From assembly GCA_021297895.1 (NCBI GenBank), contig JAJTHN010000013.1, positions 1-64,000 of the forward strand: a stretch of 64,000 nucleotides of DNA, given 5' to 3'. The notes below the pieces were generated by a model. The model ran no database searches, had not been told where the DNA came from, and was given only the letters and a program-made list of their open reading frames with translations. The position numbers were made by a program, and so were the translations under genes. Positions 34,135 to 51,948 of this stretch are shown in pieces (position 1 is the stretch's first letter; each line of letters opens with the position of its first letter). This stretch comes from Phycisphaeraceae bacterium (GTDB lineage: Bacteria > Planctomycetota > Phycisphaerae > Phycisphaerales > UBA1924).

Positions 34135-34902
34135 TCAGCGGGCCCACAGCGCACGGGGCGCCTCGATCACCCGACCCGGCCCGACGGCCAGCACGCGCGT
34201 CGGCGCGATATCCGGCGGCAGCGTCGCGATGCTCGCTCCGCCGGTGAAACTGCCGAACGCCGGCACGATCATCAGCCCGCTCCGGATGGCAAAGCACGCC
34301 GACCGCTCCCGGCCGCCCAGCGTGACCATCGGGTGAATGTGCCCCGCGATCGCCAGCGAGCCGGGCACGAGCGCGGGCTCGTGCAACCCCACGACGGCGG
34401 GCCGCGGCTCCCCGCCGGGCCCCGGCGTGCTCGCGAGCAGGCCCCACGGACCGGACACCACGCGCATGCCCCACGAACTCGGCGGGTCGCCCGCGTGTCG
34501 GTCGTGATTGCCGCGGACAAGCGTGAACGTCAGCGGCGCGATCAGCGGCTCGGCCCGCCACGATGCAACCTCGCTCATCACGCCCGGATCTCTTGCGGCA
34601 CGGTTGTGAATCAGGTCGCCGAGGACACCAAGCTCGGTCGCACGCGTCTGGCGAACAAGCGTCGAGAGGCGATCGAGGTCGGCCCGGGCGATGCGCATCG
34701 CCAGGTCACCCGCGATCGGCCGACCGAGAGCGCCGAAACTCGCGGCCTTGCCAAGATGCAGGTCCGCAACGAGCACAACCCGCCGCGACCCATCGGAGAT
34801 GAGCACCGCCGGGCCCGCGGGCGGCGGCACGAGCACGAGCGAGTGTCCATCGACATCGATCGATGTCGCCCCGACGACCTCGTGGATCGATTCGCGGCTC
34901 AT
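34135..34902 (-). CDS. pdeM: Ligase-associated DNA-repair phosphoesterase
   Basis: Encodes 255 residues of calcineurin-like metallophosphoesterases. Motifs: VADLHLGKA, VLGDLIHNR, LVRGNHDRHAGD, and a terminal AGHIHPMV. This type is found with Lhr-like helicase, ATP-dependent ligase and an MBL exonuclease in DNA damage response clusters. Here it is the last gene of exactly that set; its start overlaps the helicase stop by four bases. It is cytoplasmic. Confidence 0.9.
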   Translation of the reverse strand: MSRESIHEVVGATSIDVDGHSLVLVPPPAGPAVLISDGSRRVVLVADLHLGKAASFGALGRPIAGDLAMRIARADLDRLSTLVRQTRATELGVLGDLIHNRAARDPGVMSEVASWRAEPLIAPLTFTLVRGNHDRHAGDPPSSWGMRVVSGPWGLLASTPGPGGEPRPAVVGLHEPALVPGSLAIAGHIHPMVTLGGRERSACFAIRSGLMIVPAFGSFTGGASIATLPPDIAPTRVLAVGPGRVIEAPRALWAR

Positions 34903-37631
34903 CGCGAGCCTCCGCCGCTGCCGCGCCCGCGCCGACCGCCCCGCCCACCACCGCGTCCGCGCAGCCGCGCGCTGCGCTCAACGCGTCGCTCCTCCGCCAA
35001 CTGCGCATCGACGTCGGCAAGGCTCCCGCGCGCGTCGGGCGCATCCGGATTCGGCCGCAACTCCGCACCGACACGCCGCGGCACCTGCAGCGGCAACCCG
35101 TCGCCGGGCAGCGGCTCATCCGCAGTCGCCGAGCCGTCGGCGTATTGCTCAAGGCTCGCGACCATGCGTTGCACCCTGTCGGCCCATTGCTCGCTGGTCA
35201 GGCTCTCGCGCAAACGATCGGCCCAGAGCGGAAACGCGAACGGCGTAAGCCGCGGCGTCTCGATGATCCGGACGCTCCCGGCCTCGAGTCGTTCAAGGCA
35301 CCCCCGCAGCCGGGCGAGCTCCAGTTGCCGATCCATCACCTCGCGCCGCGCCTGATCCAGCAGCAGGTTCCGCGGATCAAACTCGCTGAAGACATCAAAG
35401 AACAGCTCGCTCGACGCCTGCGTCTGACGGCTGCCGCGCTGCGCACCGGGGAAGCTCGGAACCAGCAGCCCGGCGACGCGGGCCACCTCGCGGAACTGCC
35501 TCCGCGCAAGCGCCCCCGCGTTCACGCATGCGATGAGGTCCTCCGTCAGCCCCTCGGTGCTCAGCAGTTCACGCCACCGCTCCGGATCAGGCCAGAACGC
35601 CGTTGTGCTCAGCAGCTCGAAGCCGTAGTCGTTGTACGCCAGACTGAACGTGCGCGGCTCGGCGCGCGCCAGCCTTGCGGCGCACAGCGCGGCGAGCCCC
35701 TCGTGCACAAGCCGTCCCTCCAGCGGGTACACGAACGCGTGCCAGCCCTCGCGCGTGCGGCAATGCTCGATAAGCAACTCATCGCTCACCGGCAGTCGCG
35801 ACCAACGCATCTGCACCGCCAGCACACCCTCGGCGCAGCGCAACTCGGGCGACTCGAGCCGGCCCGAACGCGCCACGGCCAGCGTCCGCCGGACGCGCCG
35901 TGCCAGCTCGTTGCTCAGCGGCATCCGCGATCCCTGCCACGACACGACGCTGCCCGATCGCTTCCGCGCGGGCCTGGTGTACGCGCTCATCTCGCGGACG
36001 CGCACCAGTTCCAGCCTGCGGCCCGCGTAGACGAACACGTCGCCCGGCTTCATCCTCGCGACGAACGACTCCTCGATCGTTCCGAGCGATGCGCCGCTCA
36101 TGGAACGCACGATCATCGCGCTGGCGCTGTCGATGGTGCCGATGCCCAGCCGATGCACCTTGGCCAGCGGCTCGCCCGCGACGCGCCATCGGCCATCGAC
36201 CTGCACCAGGCGCTGAAACCGGTCGTACGTTCGCAGCGCCGCGCCGCCGCGGGCCGCAAAGTCCATGCACCAGCCCCACTGCTCATCGCTCAGCGCGGCG
36301 AACGCGTGGGTCCCGCGCACCTCGTCGCGCAGTTCCGACTCGACGAATCCGTCCCCGCACGCGACGGTCAGCAGATGCTGGCAGAGCACATCGAGACACA
36401 TCGTCAGCGGCTCGCGTCCCTCAACATCACGGTCCATCATCGCGCCGCGCGCCGCATCGAACTCGATGAGTTCCAGCGCGTGCGTCGGCACGCAGACGAT
36501 CGACGAGACACGCCCGGGCTGATGCCCCGACCGGCCCGCACGCTGCAGCAGCCGCGCGACGCCCTTGGGCGATCCGATCTGGATCACCTGATCAACCGGC
36601 GGGAAGTCCACGCCCAGGTCCAGGCTCGACGTGCACACGACCACGCGCACCCGCCCCGCCTTCAACTCGCCCTCGACCACGCCGCGCAGGTCGCGATCGA
36701 GCGAGCCATGATGAATCGCGAGCCTGCCCGTTGGCATCTGCTCACCCGTATCGGTGTTCACGATCGGCTCGATCCAGTCGGGCCGCGCCCGCGCCAGCGC
36801 CTGGAACCAGATCTCCGCCTGCCCGCGCGTGTTGGTGAACAACAGAGTCGTTCCGGCGCTCTCGATCTTCTCCAGCACCGCCGGCAGGAGCCGCAGGCCC
36901 AGGTGCCCCGCCCACGGGAACCGCTCGATGTCCTTTGGCAGCAGCGTCTGCACCTCGATGCGCTTGGTGTCCTCCGCACGCACGAGTTCACCCGCCGGCG
37001 CGCTCGCACCGCCCCGTCCGAGCAGCGCGGCCATCGCGCCCGGCAAGTTCGCCAGCGTGGCCGATACGCCCCAGACTCGCAGCGCCGGTACCAAGGCGCG
37101 AAGGCGAGCCAGCGCCAGTTCCACCTGCACGCCGCGTTTGGTTCCCAGCAGTTCGTGCCACTCATCGACAACGCTCAGCCGCGTCCCCGCGAACATCCGG
37201 TCACAACCCGCGTACGACATCAGCAGACTCAGGCTCTCGGGCGTGGTCACCAGCGCATCGGGCATGCGCTCGCGCTGGCGCTTCTTGATCGCCGCGGCCG
37301 TATCGCCGGTGCGCAGTTCGACCGTCCAATCGAGCCCCATCGCATCCGCCGCGGCCTGCAGCGAGGCCCGCGTGTCGCTCGCCAGCGCCCGCAGCGGCGT
37401 GATCCACAGCGCCTTGAGCCCCGGCCCACGCGCAACCGCCGCGTCGCCCGCCGCCTCATTGAGCAGGCCCATCCACACCGCGAGCGTCTTGCCCGCACCC
37501 GTCGGCGCGTTGAGCAGCCCCGACCGGCCGCACGCATAGGCGTCCCACACGCGCTCCTGAAACGGCGCCGGCACCCAGCCGCGCTGCGCGAACATCGTGT
37601 GCGCAGGGGTCTGACATGAGCGATCGCTCAT
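34899..37631 (-). CDS. Ligase-associated DEXH-box helicase (Lhr-like)
   Basis: Encodes 910 residues. A superfamily 2 helicase: Walker A NAPTGAGKTLAVW near residue 45, motif II as DEWHELLG, motif III SATLAN, and motifs V and VI in VVCTSSLDLGVDFPPVDQVIQIGSPKGVARLLQRAGRSGH. A winged-helix and Lhr-core region follows. It probably unwinds DNA or DNA-RNA hybrids with 3'-5' polarity during repair, by analogy with Lhr. Four-base overlaps on both sides couple it to the ligase and pdeM. The length agrees with the ligase-associated subfamily (about 800-900). Confidence 0.92.
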   Translation of the reverse strand: MSDRSCQTPAHTMFAQRGWVPAPFQERVWDAYACGRSGLLNAPTGAGKTLAVWMGLLNEAAGDAAVARGPGLKALWITPLRALASDTRASLQAAADAMGLDWTVELRTGDTAAAIKKRQRERMPDALVTTPESLSLLMSYAGCDRMFAGTRLSVVDEWHELLGTKRGVQVELALARLRALVPALRVWGVSATLANLPGAMAALLGRGGASAPAGELVRAEDTKRIEVQTLLPKDIERFPWAGHLGLRLLPAVLEKIESAGTTLLFTNTRGQAEIWFQALARARPDWIEPIVNTDTGEQMPTGRLAIHHGSLDRDLRGVVEGELKAGRVRVVVCTSSLDLGVDFPPVDQVIQIGSPKGVARLLQRAGRSGHQPGRVSSIVCVPTHALELIEFDAARGAMMDRDVEGREPLTMCLDVLCQHLLTVACGDGFVESELRDEVRGTHAFAALSDEQWGWCMDFAARGGAALRTYDRFQRLVQVDGRWRVAGEPLAKVHRLGIGTIDSASAMIVRSMSGASLGTIEESFVARMKPGDVFVYAGRRLELVRVREMSAYTRPARKRSGSVVSWQGSRMPLSNELARRVRRTLAVARSGRLESPELRCAEGVLAVQMRWSRLPVSDELLIEHCRTREGWHAFVYPLEGRLVHEGLAALCAARLARAEPRTFSLAYNDYGFELLSTTAFWPDPERWRELLSTEGLTEDLIACVNAGALARRQFREVARVAGLLVPSFPGAQRGSRQTQASSELFFDVFSEFDPRNLLLDQARREVMDRQLELARLRGCLERLEAGSVRIIETPRLTPFAFPLWADRLRESLTSEQWADRVQRMVASLEQYADGSATADEPLPGDGLPLQVPRRVGAELRPNPDAPDARGSLADVDAQLAEERRVERSARLRGRGGGRGGRRGRGSGGGSR

Positions 37632-39550
37632 CGCGGCCCCCCTCGGGCACGTGAGCGCCCACGCAAGGAAGCGGGCACCGCATCCATCGCCGATGTCGGC
37701 AGCATCGCGCGCAGCGCGGCGAGCGTATCGGCCTCCGCAGGCTTCTTGTCCGTGCGCCAGCGGCTCATCCGCGGGAATCGGACGCTCAGGCCGGACCTGT
37801 GCCGCGTGCTGATCGCCACACCCTCAAAGGCGATCTCGAACACAAGTTCAGGGCGAACGACGCGAAAGCCCGAGCCCGCGCGATCCGCACCGGCCCGGTC
37901 GATCGCCGCCTCTCGGACAAACGCATCGACCCGCGCCATCTCCTCATCGCTCAGCCCCGAATACGCCTTGGCGAACGGCACCAACTCGCCCTCGCCGCGT
38001 TCAGGCCCGGACCAAAGCGCAAAGGTGTAGTCCGAGTACAGCGATGCGCGCCGACCGCTGCCGCGCTGGGCGTACACGAGCACCGCGTCGAGCGTGTACG
38101 GATCGATCTTCCACTTCCACCAGCCGCGTGCCCCCTCGCCCGCATCCGCCGAGGCGCTCGCGTCCACACGCCGTCCCTGCCCGTACGGCGAGAGCCGGTG
38201 CTTGAGCATGAGCCCCTCGACACTAATCTCGCGCGAACGCGCCCGCAGCGCCGCCAGTTCGGCCCACGTCGCCACGCCCGTGCCGCTCGATTCTCCGCCA
38301 CCGGCCACTTGCGGCGAAAGCAGCATGGTCCGCCGCGCATCGCCGTCAAGCCCCTCGACGATCGACTCCAGCAGCGCACGACGCTCAAACTGAGGCAGCC
38401 CGCGAACATCGCGTCCTCCATGCTCCAGCACGTCGTACGCGACGAAGACCACCGGCACATCATGAAACAGCCGATCGCTCTGCCCCTTTCGCTGCATGCG
38501 CGTCTGAAGCATGGCGAACGGGGCGGGCCGCCCGGGCATCGCCAGCGGACCCTGCACCGGGCCCCCAGAACCAGCCGAATCCCACGCGAGCACCTCGCCA
38601 TCGAGCACCGTGCCCGGACCGAGCGATTGCGCGGCACGCGCAACCTCCGGAAACCGATCGGTCGTGACCTCCTCGCCGCGTGACCAGAGCATCGGCAGCG
38701 ACGCGTCATCGCCGCGCCGAATCAACTGACATCGCACGCCATCGAACTTCCACTCCGCCATCCACGGCCCCGGCTCGCCCAGCGTGCGTGCGGGCTCATC
38801 GGCATTCGTCGGCAACTGCAGGGCCAGGTAGAACGGATACGGCTGGGACTCATCCATCGCGTGCGCTGCGCCGGGCTCATTGACCGGCGCATGCTCCCCG
38901 CCGCCACCGCCGCTCGAGGACGGTCCCGCCTCACCTCTCGCCGTCGCGCTGCGCGCCGGCGCGCAGATTCTCGCCAGCGCTTCGGGCGTCGCGTTCCACT
39001 GTCCCATCACCCGATGCTCGATCACCGCCGGGTCGACACCCACCGCCGCCGCGAGGCCGCGGACCGCCATCGCGCGCGACACGCCCACGCGATACGTACC
39101 GCTGACGAGCTTGTGCAGCACGAACCGCTCCCGCGGCTCGAGCACGCTCCAGAGCCCGATCATCCGCTCGCGGCGTTCCGCCGCGCCCATCCGCCGCATC
39201 GGGATGAGGTGCCGCTCGATGACCTCCGCCAGCGTCGGGGCCAGTCGATCACCACCGGCGGTGCCAGCCTCGCGCCTGGGCAGCAGCAGCGCAATGGTCT
39301 CACCAAGATCGCCCACGCTCGCGTAGCACTCATCGAGCATCCATGAAGCGACCCCCGCGCTCTGGCAGGCCCACTGCCGAAGTTCCGTGCTCGTGACCAC
39401 GCGCTTCAGCCTGTTGCCCACCAGCAGCCAAAGGGCCCACGCCGCGTCGCCTGGTGGCGCATCGCGGAAGTACCGCTCGATCGCGGCGAGCTTCTCGCTC
39501 GTGCGCGTCGTCGCGTCCAGCTCGTCGTACATCTTCGTGAAGCGCATCAT
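37628..39550 (-). CDS. ATP-dependent DNA ligase, repair-cluster type
   Basis: Encodes 640 residues. The N-terminal DNA-binding domain ([17 protein letters not shown]) is followed by the adenylation domain with nucleophile Lys268 in WMAEWKFDGVRCQ, motif IV-like SVEGLMLKH and motif V WWKWKIDPYTLDAVLV, then an OB fold. A Ser/Gly-rich linker is visible at about residues 200-235. The subfamily normally has about 530 residues, so the linker and another insert (about 320-340) lengthen it. It seals nicks in coupled work with the exonuclease, helicase and phosphoesterase encoded alongside. Confidence 0.92.
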   Translation of the reverse strand: MMRFTKMYDELDATTRTSEKLAAIERYFRDAPPGDAAWALWLLVGNRLKRVVTSTELRQWACQSAGVASWMLDECYASVGDLGETIALLLPRREAGTAGGDRLAPTLAEVIERHLIPMRRMGAAERRERMIGLWSVLEPRERFVLHKLVSGTYRVGVSRAMAVRGLAAAVGVDPAVIEHRVMGQWNATPEALARICAPARSATARGEAGPSSSGGGGGEHAPVNEPGAAHAMDESQPYPFYLALQLPTNADEPARTLGEPGPWMAEWKFDGVRCQLIRRGDDASLPMLWSRGEEVTTDRFPEVARAAQSLGPGTVLDGEVLAWDSAGSGGPVQGPLAMPGRPAPFAMLQTRMQRKGQSDRLFHDVPVVFVAYDVLEHGGRDVRGLPQFERRALLESIVEGLDGDARRTMLLSPQVAGGGESSGTGVATWAELAALRARSREISVEGLMLKHRLSPYGQGRRVDASASADAGEGARGWWKWKIDPYTLDAVLVYAQRGSGRRASLYSDYTFALWSGPERGEGELVPFAKAYSGLSDEEMARVDAFVREAAIDRAGADRAGSGFRVVRPELVFEIAFEGVAISTRHRSGLSVRFPRMSRWRTDKKPAEADTLAALRAMLPTSAMDAVPASLRGRSRARGGPR

Positions 39551-40677
39551 GCGTCGCGCTCCGCGCCGGTACCGCCGCTCGCGTCACCAACCGGCTCGCC
39601 GTCCGCTTCACCATCCTCGGCCGCTGCTCCCGGCGCTTCGCCCACGTACCGCGTCGCGACCGCGAACGCGTCGACACCCGTTTCGCGCAGGTGCCGAACC
39701 ATCGGGCTGACAAACCCGTGCGTCACGCCCACACGCTCCGCGCCGGTCTGGCGGATCGTTCCCATCAGGCCGGGCCAGTCGGCGTGGTCGGAGATCACAA
39801 ACCCGCGGGCCAGACCCGCCCTGCGGCGCACGCCGCGGAGTTGCATCCATCCCGAAGCCGACGCGATCGCGAGGTCATCCGCCCCGCTCGCACGCTCGAT
39901 GCCGCGCAGCCACGCCGACCCCGCGATCGATGCCGGGCCGATCACCAGCGCCTTGCTCCCCGCGGCCTTGGCGCTCGCCTTGGTCGCATGCTCGAATGCA
40001 GGCAGCACCGCGCCCGCTCGCGCGTACGCCGCCGTGAGTTCAACCGCCGCGCCGTGCAGCAGAATCGGCCCGGCCAGCCCCGCACGGGCCAGACCGGCCA
40101 TCAGCCGCTGCGTCTTGCCGAGTGAGTACGCCAGCAGAACGCTCAGGCATCCGTTCGCCGCGTTGTGGTGCCACCACGCCGAGACCTCTCGCATGAGTTC
40201 TTCGTTGCTCCGCCAGCGATAGATCGGTAGCCCGAATGTGCTCTCGGTGATGAACGTGTCGCATCGCACAGGCTCGAACGCCTCACTCACGCCGTCATCG
40301 GCGACCTTGTAGTCGCCCGATACCACCCACGTTTCGCCCTTCGGCCCCGCGCTCCCGCCGATCCGCTCGACGCGCACCTGCGCCGATCCGAGCACGTGCC
40401 CCGCCGGGTGCAGCGAGACACGCACATCGCCCAGCCTGACCGCCCCGGCCAGGCCCCACGGAATCGCGGTGATCTTCGCGCCCGGCCCGAGCCGCGCTCG
40501 CAGCACGTGCTCGCCCGATGGCGAGGTAAGATATTCATCGGCACCAGCGCGCGCGTGGTCCGAGTGCGCATGCGTGATGATCGCGCGCACACCCGCCCGC
40601 GGCCGCCACGGGTCCACCGCGAACCCGCCGTCGGCACAGAACAGCCCGACCTCGCTCGTGTCCAGCAGTGCGGACAT
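39547..40677 (-). CDS. Ligase-associated DNA exonuclease, MBL fold
   Basis: Encodes 376 residues. A metallo-beta-lactamase/beta-CASP-like nuclease: [10 protein letters not shown] carries the metal ligands, [14 protein letters not shown] the next His, VVSGDYKV the Asp, and [17 protein letters not shown] is typical of this group. It processes DNA ends in the LHR-type repair cluster. ATG 40677 begins at the conserved N-terminus ([26 protein letters not shown] shortened here); upstream codons are shadow sequence. First gene of the four-gene minus-strand operon. C-terminal 30 residues are acidic low complexity. Confidence 0.9.
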
Positions 40678-40753
40678 CGCCCCGAAGATAGGCACCCGAA
40701 CAGGCTCCGAGCATTCGCCTCTTCCAAAACGCCGATCAGTTCCAGAGTTCACC

Positions 40754-41176
40754 GTGCCCGACCGCCGACACAAGTCCACGCCGAACGCGCACCTGCCCAC
40801 CAAGCCCTGCGCCGTCTGCGGCCGCTCGATCACCTGGCGCAAGAAGTGGGAACGCGACTGGGAGAACATTCGCTACTGCTCAGACGCCTGCCGCCGCGCG
40901 GGCGTTACCGACACCGATGCCGCACTGGAACTGGCGATCCTCCGGCTGCTCAGGGAGCTCCGCGCCGCCGACGCGACCATCTGCCCCAGTCAGGCCGCGA
41001 TCGCCGTCGCCGGGAACGTGCCGGAAGCGTGGCGACCGCTCATGGAGCCGGCTCGAGCCGCGGCTCGAAGGCTCGTCGATAAGGGCCAGATCGACATCAC
41101 CCAGGGCGGTCGAGTCGTTGACCCCAGCACCGCCCGCGGCCCGATTCGCCTGCGACTTCGCCGCTCCGCCCGATGA
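40754..41176 (+). CDS. DUF2256-DUF3253 fusion protein
   Basis: Encodes 140 residues. The N-terminal half is a DUF2256 zinc knuckle ([18 protein letters not shown], then RYCSDACRR). The C-terminal half is a DUF3253 winged-helix-like domain ([24 protein letters not shown]). Such fusions occur in many bacteria, often near photolyase/cryptochrome genes, without an assigned function. The start is a GTG at 40754, the first in-frame start after the divergent exonuclease gene; the ribosome site is weak. DNA or nucleotide binding is inferred only. Confidence 0.82.
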
Positions 41177-41279: not shown

Positions 41280-41552
41280 ATGGGCAAAGCAGTCGTCGAT
41301 CCGGCCGAACTCCGTCGCTTCGCGATGGACCTCAAGCGCTTCACGGCCAACCTGCAGGGCCAGATGGCGGTCCTTTCCGGTCGGCTCGTTACGCTGGGCC
41401 AGTCCTGGCGGGATCAGGAGCAGGTCAAGTTCGTCGAGGAGTTCGAGCAGACGATGAAGGTGCTCAACCGCTTCAACGACCTCTCGACCCAGCACATCCC
41501 GTTCCTGATCAAGAAGGCCGAAAAGATCGAGGAGTATCTCAACCAGCGCTGA
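41280..41552 (+). CDS. WXG100-like small protein
   Basis: Encodes 90 residues, all predicted helical. It is the size of WXG100 (ESAT-6-like) proteins, with Trp43 in a QSWRDQEQ turn in place of the canonical WxG, between two helices (LRRFAMDLKRFTANLQGQM and KFVEEFEQTMKVLNRFNDL). No signal peptide, as expected of type VII substrates. The C-terminus ends YLNQR, not the classic YxxxD/E tail. It is first in a four-gene set with an FtsK/SpoIIIE ATPase, which is the main reason for the assignment. Confidence 0.72.
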   Translation: MGKAVVDPAELRRFAMDLKRFTANLQGQMAVLSGRLVTLGQSWRDQEQVKFVEEFEQTMKVLNRFNDLSTQHIPFLIKKAEKIEEYLNQR

Positions 41553-41618
41553 AGCGAGCCCTGCTCCGCCGCATCCTCGGCGGCAAGCTCGATCGGCACG
41601 GGATGAGCAGCCCACGAC

Positions 41619-42758
41619 ATGCCCGCCGCACGCGTGACATCCGTTGAAGCCCTGCGCGACGCCAAGACCGCACTGGCGAAGTTCGTGCACGAGGTCAGCA
41701 CCGCGCTGGGCGAGGTCGATGTCGAAGCCGGACGCACGATCCAATGGCTCCGCATGGAGCAGGTCCCGTTCTGGAAGAACCAGATCATCCGCCGCAGCGA
41801 ACTGCTCGCCCGCGCCCGCTCGGAACTTCTTCGCAAACAACTCTCGAGCATGCAGGAAAATCCGTCCTGCGTCGACGAACGCAAAGCGGTCGAAAAGGCC
41901 AAGGCCGCGCTGGCCGATGCCGAGGTTCGCCTCAAGCGTACGAAGTTCTGGATCACCGAACTCGACCGCGAGTGGACGCTATACCGCGGCTCGATCACCG
42001 CGCTCCAGGATCTGACGCAGCGCGACGCGCCAAAGGGCCTCGCCCGCATCGAGAAACTCATCCGCACGCTGTACGCGTACGCGGCGGTCTCGCTCGACCC
42101 GAACGCCGAAAACGCCAAGGCCGCCGCGAGCACAGAAGCCCCCGGAGACGCCGACGCCGCCGCGGCACTGCTCTCGGCGATCATCGAGCACGCCAAGCGT
42201 CTCCGACCGCGCGTCCCTACGCCCGAGCAACGCGCCGCCGCCCCCGCCGTCGATCGCCCGTGGGGCGCCTTCTCACCGCGACGCGCCGAGCCCAAGCCCG
42301 CGGCCCCGGTCGCGACGAGCGACTCGTCCGCCGACGCATCCGCCCCGCAGCACGACACCTCGCCCGATGCCACGCCGGCCGTGTCAACCGAAGCAGCCGA
42401 AGAACCCGCCGCGGAGCTCTCGCTGCTCGATCGCGCCGGCCTGAGCGCCGCGCTGCCCGCTCCCGATCGTCGCGTCGTCATCGCTCAGGGCGTCTTCGAC
42501 GGTGCCGATCCATTTCTCGTCCGCCTGTCTCCCGCCTCGCCGAGCGACTCGGGCTGGTACATCGGCGGATCCGACGAGGGCGCGGGTGCCGCGCCGGTCC
42601 CCGCGACGATCGCGGCGTTGAGCATCGAGCAGATTCTCGCTGCGCGTCCGGACTGGCGAGACCTTCTGGCTCTGCCCGAGGGCACACTCGCGGTTCTGAG
42701 CCCGTCGGGCGTCGAACTGCTGCTGGACTCGACCGACGAAGTGGTCTGGAGCCCATGA
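41619..42758 (+). CDS. Coiled-coil component of type VII-like locus
   Basis: Encodes 379 residues. The first 160 or so form long helices with two Trp-containing segments (TIQWLRMEQVPFWKNQIIRR; RTKFWITELDREWTLYRG), like an enlarged WXG hairpin. An Ala/Pro/Ser-rich linker follows (about 200-265). A compact C-terminal domain of about 110 residues ends the protein (GVFDGADPFLVRLSP; LPEGTLAVLSPSGVELLLDS). No signal peptide. I do not recognise the family. Position between two WXG-like genes and before the ATPase suggests a secreted or chaperone-type partner. Confidence 0.72.
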   Translation: MPAARVTSVEALRDAKTALAKFVHEVSTALGEVDVEAGRTIQWLRMEQVPFWKNQIIRRSELLARARSELLRKQLSSMQENPSCVDERKAVEKAKAALADAEVRLKRTKFWITELDREWTLYRGSITALQDLTQRDAPKGLARIEKLIRTLYAYAAVSLDPNAENAKAAASTEAPGDADAAAALLSAIIEHAKRLRPRVPTPEQRAAAPAVDRPWGAFSPRRAEPKPAAPVATSDSSADASAPQHDTSPDATPAVSTEAAEEPAAELSLLDRAGLSAALPAPDRRVVIAQGVFDGADPFLVRLSPASPSDSGWYIGGSDEGAGAAPVPATIAALSIEQILAARPDWRDLLALPEGTLAVLSPSGVELLLDSTDEVVWSP

Positions 42759-42800
42759 ACCCGTGACCGCACGCACACCCACTCGCGAAGGAACGAACCG

Positions 42801-43025
42801 ATGAGCATGGCCGTGGCACAGACCAAACTCCGCGATGCGCTGCGCGACTTCCGTGCCCGCTGGGAGCGCACACGCGATCACTGGGACGACCCCGCCCGCA
42901 AGAGCCTCGATGACGAACTGGTCCGCCCGATGGACTCCAAGGTCTTCGCCGCCCACAGCGGCATCGGCAAACTCGCAGAACTCTTCGCCACCGCGCGCCG
43001 CGAGTGCTCGCGCGAGCAGGACTAG
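42801..43025 (+). CDS. Second WXG100-like small protein
   Basis: Encodes 74 residues, helical, with Trp21 and Trp28 in RARWERTRDHWDDPARKSLDDE, which places a WxxP-type turn between two helices as in WXG100 relatives. It is shorter than the usual 95-100 residues. It has no signal peptide and stops at TAG. It is 42 bases after the coiled-coil gene and 77 before the ATPase gene, so an operon is very likely. It may pair with the 90-residue protein as a heterodimer. Confidence 0.68.
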   Translation: MSMAVAQTKLRDALRDFRARWERTRDHWDDPARKSLDDELVRPMDSKVFAAHSGIGKLAELFATARRECSREQD

Positions 43026-43102
43026 CCCGCCCGTACCGTTGCACACGCCGATCGCTCACTCCCCTCTCCCCCCTCCGCCCCGCCGACCTCGCGAGCCCAC
43101 GA

Positions 43103-46100
43103 ATGTCCGAAGGCCCCCTGAACCTCAGCCAGCGTCAGATGCTCCGCTCGCTCACCGCGCTCTCCGGCGACCGCGCCAAGCGCGAGGAGGAGATCCGCAC
43201 AACGCTGGATACACGACAGCGCCGCGCACGCGCCGAGCACGACACGAATCTCGCCGCCCTGACCGATCGCACCTCCGCCGCGCGCGACGCCGCCGATACC
43301 GAACTTCGCGAGGGCACCGAGCGCATCACCGCCGATGCCCAGAGCCAGCGCTCCCGCATCACGCTGCAACTCCAGGGCGAACGCGGCAGCATCGTCGAAC
43401 GCGCCGAGGTCGACCGCACCGCCGCCAAGAAACGCCTGCAGGAGGCCGTCTGGATGGGCGACACCATCCTCGACGGCGCGATGAGCAAAGAGCGCGAGAA
43501 GTTCAACAAACTCGACAAGCAACTGACCGAGAACGACGCCGCGCTGACCAAGATCGATGCCGCCGCCGTGCTGCTCTCACGCTACGTCCCCACGCGCGCA
43601 GGCACAACCCCCGCGTGGCTCGACGGAATCTCGCCGAGCGAGACCCAGTTCCCCAGCCCGGCCGACACCATCAAGGACCAGACCGCCGCGGCCAATGTCC
43701 AGCTCGATCGCCTCGCGAGCATGCCGCTGCCCCCCATGATGATGCAGCCGCTGCCGTGGGTCTACGCACTGCTCGCCGCCGGCGGCGTCGGCGCGGGCGT
43801 CGCGTGGCTGCGGGCATGGCAAGTCGACAACATCACCATCGCCGTAGCGGTCGCGTCGCTGGTGGTCTTCTGCGTGTTCGCATTCCTGGCCCTGGGCGCC
43901 GTCCGGCGCAGCGTGATCAGGATCGCCCGCCCCCTGCACACGAGCCTCGCCACCGCCCGCGCCGCGATCGCCCACGCACGCACCGTCGCCACGCACGAGC
44001 GCGCCGAGGCCGAGGCCAAGGCCCAGGCCAAGCGCGAACGCGAGGTCACGTTCGCCAAGGAGCAGTACGAGGAAACACGCCAGGAACTCGCCCAGATCCG
44101 CGAACGCAAACTCTCGGACATCGACAACCGCCTTAAGTCCAAACTCGAGGCCATCGACCGCGCCTGCGCCGATGCGCTCCGCGAACTCCAGGAACGCTGC
44201 GCCGCCGCGGCGGCCGCTGCGGAACTCGACCTCCGCGAAGGCACCGCCGCGCTGGCCGAGACCCTCGACTCAACGCTCTCACAGGCACAACGCGACCACG
44301 ACCAGGCCCGCGCCGACCTCATCCGCGACTGGACTCAGGGCCTTCGCGACGCCCGCGCCGTCGATGCCCTGGTCTCCGACACCCGCGCGCCCTTCCTCCC
44401 ATGGTCCGCCGACCGCTGGGCCCCCGATGCGCCCGACTCCGGCCCGAACGCCTGGACACCCGCCGCCACCAGCCCGCGAGCCATTCCCGTTGCGCACGCC
44501 ACGCTCTCGCTCGCGTCGCTGCCCGGCGGCGTTTCGGCCGATGCAGAGCTCTCGCTCTCGCCCGCCGGCGCGCCGGGCCCCGACACGCTCCACCCCGCCG
44601 CGTTCCTCGAACTGCCCGATCACGCCTCGCTCCTGCTGCAGTTCGCCGGAGACAAGTCCGGCGGCACCGCCCGCACAGAGGCCATCAACGTCCTCCGCTC
44701 GACCATGCTCCGGCTGCTGACGAGTTTCCCGCCCGGCAAACTCCGCTTCACCATCCTCGACCCGGTCGGCCTCGGCCAGAGCTTCGCCGGCTTCATGCAC
44801 CTTGCCGACTACGAGGATGCGCTGGTCACCGACAGAATCTGGACCGAGCCCCGCCACATCGAGGCCCGCCTGACCGACCTGACCGAGCACATGGAGAACG
44901 TGATCCAGAAGTACCTCCGCAACCAGTTCAAGAGCATCGAGGAGTACAACGAGCAGGCCGGCGAAATCGCCGAGCCCTATCGCTTCCTGGTCATCGCGGA
45001 CTTCCCCGCGAACTTCTCCGAAGTCTCCGCCAAGCGCCTCGCCTCCATCCTCGCCAGCGGCCCCCGCTGCGGCGTGTACACGCTCATCGCAATGGACACC
45101 CGCCAGCAACTCCCCGCAGGTCTGACCGCCGCCGACCTGAAGCGCAACGCCCTTCGCTTCACGTACCGCAAGGGCGATCCCGCCGCCACTCCCCCCACCG
45201 CCCCCGGCCTGGTCTGGGACGACCCGGACTTCGGCTCGCTCCCCGTCGCCGTCGAGCAGCCGCCCGATGATGAGCGATTCAACGCCCTGGTTCACCGCGT
45301 CGGCGTCGCCAGCAAGGACGCCAACCGCGTGCAGGTCCCCTTCGCCATGATCGCTCCGCAGCGCGAGCAACTCTGGACCATGAGCTCCGCCTCGGAGGTC
45401 CGCGTCGCGCTCGGACGCGCCGGCGCAACCAAACTCCAGCACCTCTCCCTCGGCCGCGGCACCAGCCAGCACGCCCTCATCGCCGGCCGCACCGGCTCGG
45501 GCAAGTCCACGCTCCTCCACGCGATCATCACCAACCTCGCCATGTGGTACACCCCCGATGAGGTCGAACTCTACCTCATCGACTTCAAAAAGGGTGTCGA
45601 GTTCAAGGCCTACGCCTCCCTCGGCCTCCCGCACGCCCGCGTCATCGCCATCGAGAGCGAACGCGAGTTCGGCCTCAGCGTCCTCCGCAAACTCGACGCC
45701 GAGCTCAAGCGCCGCGGCAACCTCTTCCGCGATCAGGAGGTTCAGGACCTCAAGTCCTTCCGCTCAGCCCGCGCCGATGTGCCCATGCCCCGCATCATGC
45801 TCATCGTCGACGAGTTCCAGGAACTCTTCGTCGAAGACGACAAGCTCGCGCAGGAAGCATCGCTCCTGCTCGACCGCCTCGTGCGCCAGGGCCGCGCCTT
45901 CGGCATGCACGTCATCCTCGGCAGCCAGACCCTCGGCGGCGCGTACTCCCTCGCCCGCGCCACCATCGGGCAGATGGCCGTCCGCATCGCCCTTCAGTGT
46001 TCCGAGGCCGACGCCATGCTCATCATGAGCGACGACAACTCCGCCCCGCGCCTGCTCAACCGCCCGGGCGAGGCGATCTACAACGACGCCAGCGGCGCAA

Positions 46101-47173
46101 TCGAGGGCAACAGCCCCTTCCAGGTCGCCTGGCTCCCCGATGAGCAGCGCGAGCACTTCCTCTCGCAGGTCCGCTCGCGGATCCCGACACTCCCCGAGTC
46201 CACCCGCGCACGCCTTGTTCCGCCCATCGTCTTCGAGGGCAACGTGCCGGCCAACATCGAGGCCAACCATCCGCTCTCGCTCGCGCTCGCCGCCGCGGCG
46301 CCCGTTGAGCACGGCAAGCCCACAAACGCCTGGCTGGGCGACGCGATCGCGATCAAGGACCCGTCCGCCGGCATCTTCCGCCGCCAGGCCGGCGCGAACC
46401 TGCTCATCGTGGGCCAGAAGGACGACTCGGCGCTGGCCATGATGGTCGCATCCATTCTCTCGCTTGCCGCGCAGCACGCCCAGCGCGCCGGCACCGACGC
46501 CGCGTCGCCCGCGCCGCGCATCTACCTGCTCGATGGCACCCCCGCCGACCAGCCCGGCTTCGGCGTGCTGCCGAAGCTCGCCGCCTCATTGTCCGACGTG
46601 CTGGACATCCGCGTCATCGCCCTGCGCGATGTGCCCGGCGCGATGAACGAACTCAACGCGGAACTCTCGCGCCGCACGGCCCTGGCCGCCGAGAGCGAGT
46701 CTGGCAGCGCGCAGCCTCCGAGTTGGTACCTCTTCGTCCACGCGCTGCAGCGCTACCGCGCCCTGCGGCGCAGCGAGAACGAGTTCGACTTCTCCGCCAG
46801 CACCGGCGACGAGCCGGACGCGCAGGTCGCGCCCGAGAAGGCCTTCGCGAACATCATGCGCGAGGGCGCGGCCATGGGCATCCACACCCTCTGCTGGTGC
46901 GACACCGTGGCCAACCTCACGCGCACGCTCGAGCGCAACGCCCTCCGCGAGTTCGACCAGCGCGTGCTGTTCCAGATGTCTGGCGCCGACTCCTCGGCAC
47001 TCATGGACACCCCGTTCGCCGGCACCATCGGCAACAACCGCGCGCTGCTGTACAGCGAGGAACAGGGCTCCGTCGAGAAGTTCCGCCCGTACGCCATGCC
47101 CGGCGACGCGTGGCTCGCCGCCACCATCAACCGCCTGACCCGCCGCACGCCCACTCCCGAGCCAACGCGATGA
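43103..47173 (+). CDS. FtsK/SpoIIIE-type membrane ATPase of type VII-like system
   Basis: Encodes 1356 residues. An Arg/Glu-rich coiled coil covers about residues 10-200. Two membrane helices follow (about 217-269: YALLAAGGVGAGVAWL and ITIAVAVASLVVFCVFAFLAL), then a second coiled coil (about 285-420). Next comes an FtsK-like array: a first domain without a P-loop (about 520-760), a central one with Walker A GRTGSGKS at 795-802 and Walker B LIVDEFQ (Asp903), and a third without a P-loop (LLIVGQKDDSALAM, near 1103). The three-domain array matches EccC/EssC engines, while the coiled-coil flanks do not. It probably powers export of the WXG-like products. Confidence 0.85.
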   Translation: MSEGPLNLSQRQMLRSLTALSGDRAKREEEIRTTLDTRQRRARAEHDTNLAALTDRTSAARDAADTELREGTERITADAQSQRSRITLQLQGERGSIVERAEVDRTAAKKRLQEAVWMGDTILDGAMSKEREKFNKLDKQLTENDAALTKIDAAAVLLSRYVPTRAGTTPAWLDGISPSETQFPSPADTIKDQTAAANVQLDRLASMPLPPMMMQPLPWVYALLAAGGVGAGVAWLRAWQVDNITIAVAVASLVVFCVFAFLALGAVRRSVIRIARPLHTSLATARAAIAHARTVATHERAEAEAKAQAKREREVTFAKEQYEETRQELAQIRERKLSDIDNRLKSKLEAIDRACADALRELQERCAAAAAAAELDLREGTAALAETLDSTLSQAQRDHDQARADLIRDWTQGLRDARAVDALVSDTRAPFLPWSADRWAPDAPDSGPNAWTPAATSPRAIPVAHATLSLASLPGGVSADAELSLSPAGAPGPDTLHPAAFLELPDHASLLLQFAGDKSGGTARTEAINVLRSTMLRLLTSFPPGKLRFTILDPVGLGQSFAGFMHLADYEDALVTDRIWTEPRHIEARLTDLTEHMENVIQKYLRNQFKSIEEYNEQAGEIAEPYRFLVIADFPANFSEVSAKRLASILASGPRCGVYTLIAMDTRQQLPAGLTAADLKRNALRFTYRKGDPAATPPTAPGLVWDDPDFGSLPVAVEQPPDDERFNALVHRVGVASKDANRVQVPFAMIAPQREQLWTMSSASEVRVALGRAGATKLQHLSLGRGTSQHALIAGRTGSGKSTLLHAIITNLAMWYTPDEVELYLIDFKKGVEFKAYASLGLPHARVIAIESEREFGLSVLRKLDAELKRRGNLFRDQEVQDLKSFRSARADVPMPRIMLIVDEFQELFVEDDKLAQEASLLLDRLVRQGRAFGMHVILGSQTLGGAYSLARATIGQMAVRIALQCSEADAMLIMSDDNSAPRLLNRPGEAIYNDASGAIEGNSPFQVAWLPDEQREHFLSQVRSRIPTLPESTRARLVPPIVFEGNVPANIEANHPLSLALAAAAPVEHGKPTNAWLGDAIAIKDPSAGIFRRQAGANLLIVGQKDDSALAMMVASILSLAAQHAQRAGTDAASPAPRIYLLDGTPADQPGFGVLPKLAASLSDVLDIRVIALRDVPGAMNELNAELSRRTALAAESESGSAQPPSWYLFVHALQRYRALRRSENEFDFSASTGDEPDAQVAPEKAFANIMREGAAMGIHTLCWCDTVANLTRTLERNALREFDQRVLFQMSGADSSALMDTPFAGTIGNNRALLYSEEQGSVEKFRPYAMPGDAWLAATINRLTRRTPTPEPTR

Positions 47174-48937: not shown

Positions 48938-50542
48938 TCAGTGCCTCACCGTCGCCAGACGCAGGATGTTCTCCTGCGTCATCTTCTCGCCGATGAGTTC
49001 GCCGGTGATCTCGCCGTCGCACATGACCACGATCCGATCCGACAGCGCCAGCAACTCCGGCATTTCGCTGCTGACCAGCAACACCGCCAGCCCCTCATCG
49101 GCCGCCGCTCGCACAAGCCGATAAATCTCCGTCTTGGTCCCGACATCGATCCCGCGCGTCGGCTCATCCAGCAGCAGCACGCACGTCTCCTTCGCCAGCC
49201 ACCGCGCCAGCAGCAGCTTCTGCTGGTTCCCGCCCGACAGTTCGCCCGGCAGCGAGGTGTACCGCGCCGTCTTGACCTGGAACTTCTTCACGCGCTCGGC
49301 CACCTCGTTCCGCTCGGCGCTCCGCAGGCGGATCCCCAGCTTCGCAAGCAGCGGCATCTTCGGCGCGATGATGTTCTCATCCACACCCAGCAGGAAAAAC
49401 AACCCCTGCAAGCGCCGATCCTCGGGCACATAGCCCACGCCCGCCACGATCCGCTCCCGCGGCCGCCCCGGCGTGAACGTCCGCCCGGGGATCGAAACAC
49501 CCCCAGACGCCGAGCCGTCGAGCCCGAAAATCGCGTCCAGCAACTCCGACCGACCCGAACCGACCAGCCCCCCCACCCCAAGCACCTCGCCCTTGTGCAC
49601 CTTCAGCGACACGTTCTTGAGCCGCCCCGGCGAACTCAGCCCCGAGACCTCCAGCAGCACCGGCTCGCCATCAAAGGCGTGCGGTCGCCGATCGCCCTCG
49701 ACCATCTGCGACCGGCCCGATCGGTACGACTTGGATGAGTCGATCCTCCGACCAATCATCTGCGCAACCAGGTCCGCCTCACCGATCGCCCTGACCTCGC
49801 TGGTGGCGACGTACTTGCCGTCGCGCAGCACTGTCACGCGATCGCACACGGAGAAAATCTCTCCCATCCGGTGCGACACGTAAATGCACAGCAGCCCCTT
49901 GCTCGCAAGGTCCCGCACAATCGCCCCGAGCCGGTCCGCCTCCGCCACCGAAAGCGAACTGGTCGGCTCGTCGAAAATGATCACCCGCGCCGCCGGCTCC
50001 GGCCTGCCGTCAGGACCGACACGCTCCTCCAGCGACGCGGCGATCTGCACAATCTGCCGCCGACCCGGCGCGAGCGATCCCAGCGGCGAACGCACATCGA
50101 TCTCCGGCGCCAGTGCCGAAAGCAGCCGCGACGCCCGCTCCTCCATCATCCGCCGGCTCAGCACACCGCCACGCGTCGGCAGGTCGTGCAGGCACAGGTT
50201 CTCCGCCACCGACAGGTTCGGGCACTGCGCCAGTTCCTGGTGCACGATCCTCACACCCGCCCCGAACGCGTCATCGATGTCACCCAGCCTCAGCTCGCGG
50301 CCATCGAGCACGATCGAGCCCGTGTCCGGCTTGTGCAGCCCGGCGATCGCCTTGCCCAGCGTGCTCTTTCCCGCCCCGTTCTCCCCCATCAACGCGTGAA
50401 CCTCGCCCGCCCGGAACGTCACGCTCACACCGTCCAGCGCCTGCGTGATCCCGAACCGCTTGCTCACGTTCGTCACGACCAACAGGTCGCTCCCGATCCG
50501 CGTGCGCGCCCCGGCCGATGGTTCCGCAGTCGCTGTGCTCAT
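48938..50542 (-). CDS. Sugar ABC transporter ATP-binding protein
   Basis: Encodes 534 residues with two ABC cassettes, as in RbsA/MglA/XylG. First cassette: Walker A GENGAGKST, signature LAPGRRQIVQ, Walker B VIIFDEPTSSL. Second: degenerate P-loop region GLVGSGRSEL, signature LSGGNQQKLLLARWLA, Walker B VLLLDEPTRGIDVG. It energises import by the adjacent permease. The start is ATG 50542. The gene order here is permease, binding protein, ATPase. A stem-loop terminator lies between the binding-protein and ATPase genes, so expression may be stepped. Confidence 0.93.
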   Translation of the reverse strand: MSTATAEPSAGARTRIGSDLLVVTNVSKRFGITQALDGVSVTFRAGEVHALMGENGAGKSTLGKAIAGLHKPDTGSIVLDGRELRLGDIDDAFGAGVRIVHQELAQCPNLSVAENLCLHDLPTRGGVLSRRMMEERASRLLSALAPEIDVRSPLGSLAPGRRQIVQIAASLEERVGPDGRPEPAARVIIFDEPTSSLSVAEADRLGAIVRDLASKGLLCIYVSHRMGEIFSVCDRVTVLRDGKYVATSEVRAIGEADLVAQMIGRRIDSSKSYRSGRSQMVEGDRRPHAFDGEPVLLEVSGLSSPGRLKNVSLKVHKGEVLGVGGLVGSGRSELLDAIFGLDGSASGGVSIPGRTFTPGRPRERIVAGVGYVPEDRRLQGLFFLLGVDENIIAPKMPLLAKLGIRLRSAERNEVAERVKKFQVKTARYTSLPGELSGGNQQKLLLARWLAKETCVLLLDEPTRGIDVGTKTEIYRLVRAAADEGLAVLLVSSEMPELLALSDRIVVMCDGEITGELIGEKMTQENILRLATVRH

Positions 50543-50659
50543 GAGGCCCCAAGCGTACACGACCCCCGGCCCATCGCCAACATCAGCCTCCCCAATCGCG
50601 GCACGCCGAACACGCCCCCTCGAACTCCCCGGGGTACCCCGATGCCCGAAAATGCGAAC

Positions 50660-50690
50660 AGGCCCGCCGCGAGTTCTTCGCGGCGGGCCT
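50660..50690 (-). terminator. Stem-loop after binding-protein gene
   Basis: A perfect 13-bp stem AGGCCCGCCGCGA / TCGCGGCGGGCCT with a 5-base loop. The following minus-strand bases (GTTCGCATTTTC) give only a weak U tract, so termination may be partial. Confidence 0.55.
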
Positions 50691-50774
50691 GGCGTTGTTC
50701 ACCGACATGTCCTTGATCGGCCCGGGCTCATCGCCACGGGCCGAGGGTCTTGTTCATCCTGCCGCGCCGGGCGA

Positions 50775-51782
50775 TTACTTGCTCTTGCCCAGCCAGCGGT
50801 CCCAGTTCTTGCCGTACTCGTCGACGTTGGCCTTGTTCACGACCACCAGCGGCGCGTTGACGATCGGGCTGGCCGGCTGCTTGTTCTCGACCAGCTTCTC
50901 CATGATCAACTGCACGCTCGTGGTGCCCCACTCGTAAACCTGCTGAGCCAGCAGCGTGTCAACCTCGCCCGAGCGGACATAATCCAGCTGCGCCGGCAGA
51001 GCGTCGACCGCCACCACCTTCGCACGCCCGGCCACGCTCTTGAGAGCGTTCTGCGTGAACAGCGGCCAGCCGCCCACCATCGCCCAGCCCGTGATCTGCG
51101 GATTGGCCGCCATCACCTGCTCAACCTTCAGCACCGCGTCCTGCGGCGTCTCGGCGTGGTAGTACGTGTCCAGGATCTGAATGTCCTTGAACGCCTTCAT
51201 CCCCTCCCGCACGCCGCGAACGCGGGCCTGCAGGTTCGGCGCGTTCTGGTTGCCCGCCAGGATCGCCACCACGCCCTTGTTGCCCATGCTCTTGGCCAGT
51301 TCGCCGGCCAACTGCTTGCCGCACTCAAAGTCGTTGGTGCCGAAGTACGCCAGTCGCTGCGAGTCGGGCACGTCCGAGTCGAACGTCACCACAACCGTGC
51401 CGCGCTCCACGGCCGAGTCGATCGCGGCCTTGAGCAGCTTCGCATCGCTGGCCGAAACCGCGATGCCGTCGGCACCGCCCGCGACCAACTGCTCGATCGC
51501 CTCGGCCTGCTTCTGGCCGTCCTCCGCCACCGGCGTACGCCAGTCGATGCGGATATCCACGCCCAGCTTCTTCCCCCACGCCTTGGCCGCGTCCTCCGCG
51601 CCCGTCCGGGCCGCGAGGAACACCGGATTGCTGTTGCTCTTGGCCACCATCCCGATGACGTACTGAGACTTCTTCGGCTTTGCCGCCTCGGTCTTCTTCG
51701 CGTCGGGCGCCGCGGCCATCGCCGCCATCGCCAGGCCGGCGACCGCACCGACCGTCAGAAGCCCCTTGATCCAGTTGCGCAT
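50775..51782 (-). CDS. Periplasmic sugar-binding protein of ABC transporter
   Basis: Encodes 335 residues of the periplasmic-binding-protein type 1 fold (RbsB/XylF-like). The signal peptide MRNWIKGLLTVGAVAGLAMA precedes an Ala/Lys-rich spacer. The first strands read YVIGMVAKSNSNPVF, GGADGIAVSASDAKLL and VVVTFDSDVPDSQR, typical ligand-site segments. ATG 51782 has GGAG seven bases upstream. It delivers ligand, probably a monosaccharide, to the permease encoded just upstream. Confidence 0.92.
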   Translation of the reverse strand: MRNWIKGLLTVGAVAGLAMAAMAAAPDAKKTEAAKPKKSQYVIGMVAKSNSNPVFLAARTGAEDAAKAWGKKLGVDIRIDWRTPVAEDGQKQAEAIEQLVAGGADGIAVSASDAKLLKAAIDSAVERGTVVVTFDSDVPDSQRLAYFGTNDFECGKQLAGELAKSMGNKGVVAILAGNQNAPNLQARVRGVREGMKAFKDIQILDTYYHAETPQDAVLKVEQVMAANPQITGWAMVGGWPLFTQNALKSVAGRAKVVAVDALPAQLDYVRSGEVDTLLAQQVYEWGTTSVQLIMEKLVENKQPASPIVNAPLVVVNKANVDEYGKNWDRWLGKSK

Positions 51783-51948
51783 GCTGTGCTCCAGAGTTGA
51801 ATTCCCGCCAGGGTTCCGACCCCGGCCTCCTGCTTTCGCCGCCCCACGCAGAGCGGACGCAACCCATCCCCGATTCACCCTCCACCCACCAGCACACCCC
51901 CAAGAACGTGCCGCCAGAAGCCCCCACCGCCACAAACAGACTAACAGT

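Follow-up and report, generated by a model that had tools for sequence, protein, structure and literature searches.

A conserved four-gene locus of Planctomycetota resembling a stripped-down type VII secretion module

Introduction

Type VII secretion systems (T7SS), known chiefly from Gram-positive bacteria, share a core consisting of an EccC/EssC ATPase and a WXG100 protein, and a WxG protein together with FtsK has been called a minimal T7SS set (PMC4978471). Besides T7SSa and T7SSb, eight further subtypes (T7SSc-j) have been described, in Actinomycetota and Bacillota only (PMC11217815), and a survey of secretion systems omitted ESX as absent from diderm bacteria with lipopolysaccharide (PMC4793230); these papers, and the others given by PMC number, are cited for the passages that bear on our subject, and statements about their content refer to those passages. 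Here we analyse a locus with the same core at positions 41280-47173 of a 64,000-nucleotide stretch of DNA from a Phycisphaeraceae bacterium (assembly GCA_021297895.1, contig JAJTHN010000013.1), which we call the window. It encodes two small WXG100-like proteins (P0001 and P0003), a helical hairpin protein (P0002), and an EccC/EssC-like ATPase (P0004). We favour, with a probability of roughly 0.55, a reading in which the locus encodes a membrane-anchored, stripped-down T7SS-like module that exports a hairpin complex across the inner membrane.

The class itself has been in print since 2012. Footnote 6 to Table 1 of PMC3482391 pairs a solo WXG protein with a YueA-like ATPase, in lineages that include planctomycetes, as "mobile versions of T7SS", and the ATPase is said there to carry three FtsK/HerA domains of which the middle one alone is active. 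Our locus fits this account in its lineage, its solo WXG protein, and its three-domain ATPase with a single active middle domain. The second small protein, the hairpin protein, the membrane helices, and the gene order go unmentioned in that paper's text on the class, at least in the passages cited here, and the class is described as mobile, whereas inheritance at our locus looks mostly vertical.

Relatives from CoCoNuTs and from Helicobacter have also been published. Type III-A CoCoNuTs carry an EssC-like extension, for the stand-alone form of which the authors cite Anantharaman et al. 2012; like our locus, it combines a three-domain ATPase with an active second domain (D2), two WXG100-like proteins, one of them motif-less, and a coiled-coil protein (PMC11090510). 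It differs in that its ATPase class is without membrane helices and is found in VWA/TerY-P operons, and in that its coiled-coil protein bears a nuclease fold. In H. pylori, HP0062 is a small hairpin with a WRD motif, clustered with an FtsK/SpoIIIE-domain protein (HP0066), so that, as here, a WRD hairpin stands beside an FtsK/SpoIIIE-domain gene (PMC3397514). Finally, Lap1, Lap2, and LXG form a heterotrimer that is needed for export; this system resembles our locus in joining an effector domain with two WXG100-like partners (PMC9600955).

We found no publication on this planctomycete locus by title in the open-licence literature. As far as our searches show, what is new is the four-gene core, the paired hydrophobic segments of the ATPase that were unseen in five plasmid relatives, and a second gene slot without a recognised toxin where a Helicobacter plasmid has a nuclease.

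Results

A preliminary description, made from the sequence alone, had placed four genes in one direction at 41280-47173 with short gaps (42-77 bases). All four are present on the + strand at these coordinates, and the gaps measure 66, 42, and 77 bases:

41280-41552, + strand: gene 1, P0001, 90 residues, WXG100 family, WRD replacing WXG
41619-42758, + strand: gene 2, P0002, 379 residues, helical hairpin with a C-terminal Imm33-like domain; proposed effector or carrier slot
42801-43025, + strand: gene 3, P0003, 74 residues, second WXG100-like protein
43103-47173, + strand: gene 4, P0004, 1356 residues, membrane EccC/EssC-like ATPase

Homologues of P0004 are widespread and patchy, occurring in 41 of 101 genomes at E <= 1e-40 (the window's genome included) and in 95 of 298 genomes of the class at E <= 1e-60. 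The best 80 of 501 confirmed relatives from a scan of named genomes carry the class name Phycisphaerae in 29 titles, Planctomycetia in 27, Alphaproteobacteria in 1, and none in 23; the other 421 may include relatives from outside the phylum. One locus labelled Alphaproteobacteria (L151, PBMH01000006.1) is a full planctomycete-type locus, and is perhaps a mislabelled bin or a transfer.

The small genes accompany the ATPase. At least 2 kb of sequence lies upstream of the ATPase in 92 of the 120 loci outside the window, and 83 of these 92 have all three small genes beside it; the 28 shorter loci, left out of this count, hold the full set in six cases. On the basis of the 83 of 92 loci, the four-gene set is more than a chance association. 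The order WXG, hairpin, 74-residue protein, ATPase on one strand, as judged by the midpoints of profile matches, is found in 88 of the 89 loci holding all three small genes (L083 fails), two genomes being included twice in the locus counts. The gene order seen in the window is therefore conserved in relatives, including genomes titled Planctomycetia.

Nine of the 92 loci lack some or all of the small genes beside the ATPase. Four of them belong to genomes with a WXG100 gene elsewhere: G029, G061, and G097 keep the three small genes side by side at a site separate from the ATPase gene, and the WXG gene was the only one detected at such a site in G088. The other five are L077, L088, L091, L120, and L125. 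The small genes keep together even where the locus is split. Across the 101 genomes, WXG100 and ATPase occur together in 40, each alone in 1, and neither in 59; both exceptions lie at contig ends (G005, and G018, in which no strong ATPase match was found).

The window's genome holds one P0004, plus one remote FtsK-like match elsewhere, and a single WXG100 protein above cut-off, P0001, with one further weak match (E 0.18). A second copy of P0002, sought genome-wide as an unlinked substrate, was not found. Scans of the locus gave no promoter-like site, and terminator-like sites were not above chance.

In a tree of the core formed by the first two ATPase domains (D1-D2), family labels change 10 times; at least 8 changes are needed, and shuffled labels average 32.7. 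The tree was built by a quick method from 59 rows, with 6 of 65 loci dropped by a length filter (L006, L023, L057, L061, L068, and L156) and two genomes present twice. Branch support is uneven, with stars on 20 of the 54 inner branches, and family f1 alone needs five changes. The plain reading of this tree is that inheritance was probably mostly vertical with many losses; single transfers are possible.

P0004 matches Pfam FtsK_SpoIIIE at 6.3e-37 and can be divided as follows:

43103-43732, + strand: charged N-terminal region, residues 1-210, probably coiled-coil, by composition only
43751-43807, + strand: hydrophobic segment 1, residues 217-235, hydropathy 1.41
43838-43894, + strand: hydrophobic segment 2, residues 246-264, hydropathy 2.95
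44609-45277, + strand: degenerate domain D1, about residues 503-725, from the model and structural alignment; without a P-loop, strongly conserved
45392-46102, + strand: active domain D2, about residues 764-1000, from Pfam, alignment, and P-loop
45485-45508, + strand: Walker A motif GRTGSGKS, residues 795-802, P-loop in 60 of 60 rows
45809-45817, + strand: Walker B motif DEF, residues 903-905, in 60 of 60 rows
46280-47122, + strand: degenerate domain D3, about residues 1060-1340, aligned with EccC ATPase 3; P-loop replaced

Residues 476-1356 were modelled from 60 of 115 available rows, with a mean predicted local distance difference test score (pLDDT) of 89.5 and a predicted template modelling score of 0.83. 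Foldseek ranks the cytoplasmic domain of T. curvata EccC first for this model (4nh0_A, 5.2e-29); 726 residues align across all three ATPase domains with a Z of 27.8 and a root-mean-square deviation of 12.8, which we take to reflect domain shifts. The predicted architecture of P0004 is EccC-like, with three tandem ATPase domains. FtsK motor structures reach a higher Z of 31.7, but over a single domain, D2, and 278 residues. This match is what would speak for a DNA translocase with the WXG-like proteins as its regulatory subunits, an explanation that we consider very improbable because P0004 has its three domains in tandem in the order of EccC and is associated with WXG100.

The P-loop is confined to D2 in 60 of 60 rows, with no row holding two, and it is by the P-loop only that we judge D2 to be active. 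In a wider set, 119 of 120 frames holding the main P-loop have one P-loop pattern match; L095 has a second, near its N-terminus. Separately, 9 of 42 ATPase matches contain one in-frame stop (G017, G033, G036, G061, G074, G075, G077, G078, and G099), which could be alignment overrun, sequence error, or decay.

The preliminary description had also called P0004 a membrane protein, and hydropathy agrees. Counting as a hydrophobic segment any 19 residues with a mean hydropathy of at least 1.3, and going by hydropathy only, we found that 106 of 109 full-length homologues have at least two such segments ahead of the ATPase part; of the other three, one has a single segment and two have none.

The 90-residue P0001 passes the Pfam cut-off for WXG100 (30.7 bits against 27.3, E 4e-7) and misses that of NCBIfam TIGR03930 (26.1 against 44.85). 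When the profile of its family was compared to the PDB, the helical-hairpin crystal structure of HP0062 came first (8.2e-12), followed by EsxB (1.1e-9) and EsxA (2.3e-5). With the gene order conserved as well, neither result named in the preliminary description as refuting it was seen, the hairpin fold being judged here for the P0001 family. P0003 alone gave no family match. Within its family of 32, made up of the window protein and 31 relatives, 13 members reach E <= 0.5 against Pfam WXG100, the best of them 1.5e-6, and hhalign aligns the family profile with that of P0001 at a probability of 80%, superposing the W and the D of the two motifs. Because the P0003 family both matches WXG100 and aligns to the P0001 profile, the locus contains two WXG100-like families, and P0003 is homologous to P0001. 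Against the PDB, the P0003 family found nothing significant; its best match was at 0.055, with ESAT-6-like and EsxA chains at 0.24-0.87.

The conserved motifs of the two small proteins are:

41406-41414, + strand: WRD motif of P0001, residues 43-45; W43 and D45 invariant in 32 of 32
42882-42890, + strand: WDD motif of P0003, residues 28-30; W28 and D30 invariant in 32 of 32

The literal W-x-G turn is replaced by WxD in all 32 members of each family, and the variants in the P0001 family are WRD (29), WQD (2), and WKD (1). The designation of both proteins as WXG100-like therefore holds for the family and fails for the motif.

P0002 consists of two recognisable parts:

41643-42092, + strand: long helical hairpin, residues 9-158, helices in the AlphaFold2 model
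42426-42710, + strand: Imm33-like (PF24719) domain, residues 270-364, Pfam 7.5e-8

Its AlphaFold2 model, made from 50 rows with a mean pLDDT of 83.5, has two long helices (9-76 and 85-158), a low-confidence linker, and a small beta domain. What had been described as a Trp-bearing coiled-coil protein is thus modelled as a long helical hairpin, and it also has an Imm33-like C-terminal domain at the slot where the Helicobacter relative described below has its nuclease. In Planctomycetota, slot 2 holds either the hairpin alone or a hairpin with an Imm33-like domain, and most of its proteins lack the Imm33 motif. Of 95 P0002 homologues, 25 exceed 300 residues and 21 have the motif D[ST]GW, our own marker for the Imm33-like domain and no curated motif; the 95 include two genomes twice (L042/L117 and L052/L152), so that one among the 21 is counted twice. 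The remainder are shorter or without the motif, their C-termini having been examined for length and this one motif only. Among 41 genomes, the Imm33-like model matches in three, the window's included, at E <= 1e-4, and all three matches fall inside the P0002 gene by position.

A hidden toxin in slot 2 was looked for without success in a Pfam search of 32 members of the P0002 family (E <= 0.1). The families matched there by more than one member were Imm33-like (8) and Imm33 (3), among the 25 of 30 families listed. Among those same 25 families there is no LXG.

The preliminary description had noted no known T7SS partner near the locus, and the parts of this claim covered by our searches have held with one qualification. 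In the whole genome (97% complete), profiles for YukD/EsaB and YukC/EssB have no match, with controls positive in B. subtilis for the former and in four genomes, B. subtilis included, for the latter. The EccB profile likewise has no match, but no control genome was positive either. Of five open reading frames (ORFs) flanking the locus, three matched Pfam, none of them to a T7SS family, and two had no match; no profile search was made for EccD, EccE, mycosin, EsaA, or EssA.

To look beyond the phylum, we searched 72,556 plasmid records with P0004 (tblastn); 512 matched, none covering 80% of the protein, and the best five were examined. Two Rhodococcus plasmids and a Deinococcus plasmid match over all three domains, those of Caballeronia and Helicobacter over D1-D2. 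No paired hydrophobic segments were seen in these five ATPases; four have one or two separate segments, and the Deinococcus ATPase has no hydrophobic segment within its first 400 residues and no recognisable P-loop. This last relative (L179, 9617-12460) is annotated FtsK, gives no P-loop pattern match, and has several small proteins around it. The main WXG-like protein carries WQD, WGD, WKD, and WQD in four of the five loci; the candidate in L178 is without Trp.

On the Helicobacter sp. plasmid, the order is an 89-residue WXG protein, a 340-residue protein, a SUKH immunity protein (1.6e-6), a 77-residue protein, and an ATPase of 823 residues. The 340-residue protein is helical and ends in a WHH/colicin-DNase domain (1.1e-11, 9.8e-9), so that a nuclease protein and a SUKH immunity gene lie inside the WXG and FtsK module (L181, 8027-9438); no such pair was recognised in the planctomycete locus. 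With caution, slot 2 looks like an effector slot, occupied by a nuclease with its immunity protein in Helicobacter and by a bare or Imm33-like hairpin in Planctomycetota. The planctomycete locus could then be a toxin-delivery module that lost its slot-2 nuclease and kept the hairpin, sometimes with an Imm33-like domain, in a protective or residual role. Imm33 is an immunity family for HNH toxins (PMC3482391), which suits this explanation as the two contents of slot 2 do. It nevertheless seems improbable to us: the ATPase and P0001 are strongly conserved between deep lineages, which is unexpected for a residual system, and the Imm33 motif is found in only 21 of 95 slot-2 proteins.

The conjugative Rhodococcus plasmid of strain AH-ZY2 encodes an ATPase of 1322 residues, a 314-residue protein, a 73-residue protein with WRD, an 87-residue WXG protein, and TerD genes. 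The 314-residue protein matches the hairpin profile at 4.5e-7 and is thus related to P0002; its C-terminal part has no Pfam match (L177, 14489-15958). The Caballeronia plasmid, the only record found by P0001 itself, reads VWA, WXG100 (89 residues), coiled-coil (436), a 113-residue protein, a 76-residue protein, ATPase (927), CARF, VWA, PP2C, and kinase.

This Caballeronia module, lying inside a locus of VWA, CARF, phosphatase, and kinase genes, and the Rhodococcus relative adjoining TerD genes both argue for another explanation, in which the planctomycete proteins form an intracellular, membrane-tethered defence or stress complex; here the small hairpins would be ATPase adaptors, as they may be in the CoCoNuT/TerY-P extension, and nothing would be exported. 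The CoCoNuT authors' report of the same ATPase class without membrane helices (PMC11090510) points the same way, and the ATPase domain is hit by two Padloc models, SspH and mad8, though only over the generic ATPase core. We consider this explanation unlikely, if less so than a lost toxin. Paired hydrophobic segments are the rule in the full-length homologues (106 of 109), and gene conservation stops at the four genes: the most widespread group of similar ORFs in the flanks (at least 80 residues) is present at 14 of 121 loci, lying on either side, and many of the 121 have short flanks.

Two narrower proposals were rejected. Identity with the CoCoNuT/TerY-P extension fails on the absence of such recurrent neighbours, on the five window flanks, which hold no VWA, and on the hydrophobic segments. 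A kinase link to the flanks found no support in the count of a strict motif (3 ORFs in 3 of 121 loci); the loose 14-locus cluster looks kinase-like by eye in its longest member.

Around the locus, the window contains the following:

40469-41176, + strand: single ORF immediately upstream of the locus, DUF2256 and DUF3253 (Pfam)
34899-40869, - strand: ATP-dependent DNA ligase (Pfam), flanked by a large helicase-like ORF and by a metallo-beta-lactamase-like ORF without a Pfam match
48938-53541, - strand: ABC transporter ATPase (Pfam), then substrate-binding-like and permease-like ORFs (labels by eye)

With a putative helicase and a putative nuclease on its two sides, the ligase looks like part of a ligase-associated DNA repair operon. 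The ABC ORFs are perhaps a sugar uptake operon, a function assigned by eye.

Discussion

The computation yields the gene set with its order and co-occurrence, an ATPase of EccC-like architecture that has one P-loop and paired hydrophobic segments, a predicted P0002 hairpin, and the homology of the two small families; from these the following model of an export module can be drawn. P0004 would sit in the inner membrane through its two helices, probably as a hexamer, with its EccC/EssC-like triple ATPase in the cytosol. D2 alone would hydrolyse ATP, and D1 and D3, their P-loops lost, would probably gate and bind substrate. The WxD hairpins P0001 and P0003 would pair with the long hairpin of P0002 in a pre-secretion complex and present it to P0004, which would then move the complex across the inner membrane. 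That two small proteins may dress the P0002 hairpin for the ATPase is suggested by analogy with LXG effectors and their two WXG100-like partners (PMC9600955).

Several results weigh against export, or against too close a likeness to known T7SS. Searches for three known partners (EccB, YukD, and EssB) brought up no pore or periplasmic component. The YxxxD/E export motif is absent from the last 20 residues of the P0001 family (0 of 32) and the last 25 of the P0003 family (0 of 32), and the looser [YF]xxx[DE], sought in the C-terminal half, occurs in 0 of 32 and 1 of 32, respectively. Among the matches listed in a fold search with P0002, there were generic coiled-coil hairpins and no T7SS effector. 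At the profile level, the assignment of P0004 to EccC or EssC failed: both NCBIfam equivalog cut-offs were missed by far (EccCa, 110 against 509; EssC, 102.7 against 778). D1 lacks Walker motifs here, unlike EssC, which carries them in D1 and D2 (PMC11090510). In the plasmids of Caballeronia and Helicobacter, slots 2 and 3 match the planctomycete genes by position only, in that neither the hairpin profile nor the 74-residue profile detects them, and Trp is absent from the proteins of slot 3. The co-occurrence of WXG100 and ATPase has a Fisher value of 7e-26, which ignores shared descent. And because published relatives without membrane helices are found in defence loci (PMC11090510), the shared ancestral role need not be export.

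A canonical T7SS can be rejected: the equivalog cut-offs, the D1 without a P-loop, and the missing YukD and EssB all speak against it, and with its WxD motifs the planctomycete locus departs from T7SSa, T7SSb, and T7SSc-j alike. The view of the set as resembling a minimal export system is right in that it is T7SS-like, conserved in order, and without the partners we tested; the class had already been published, and export stays an inference. Planctomycetes are bacteria with an outer membrane, and nothing found in the analysis of the locus explains passage through it.

A bolder version of the export reading is possible, though we hold it only tentatively and think it more doubtful than export itself. 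Planctomycetota may keep a vertically inherited, toxin-free, four-protein T7SS core, whose EccC-like ATPase with its single active domain exports the WxD/WxD/hairpin complex across the inner membrane, physiologically and not as a weapon; it would be either the simplest known T7SS or a domesticated mobile form.

The locus is widely conserved and directly testable. If a protein is exported, the locus would reveal the T7SS parts that are really required, namely small hairpins and an EccC-like pump in which a single ATPase domain is live, with no partners of the EccB or EssB type. It would then be a working T7SS-like core in bacteria that belong neither to Actinomycetota nor to Bacillota, and its role would be stable and other than that of a weapon. 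The comparison with the plasmids suggests how toxin-carrying mobile modules and a resident system could be connected in evolution.

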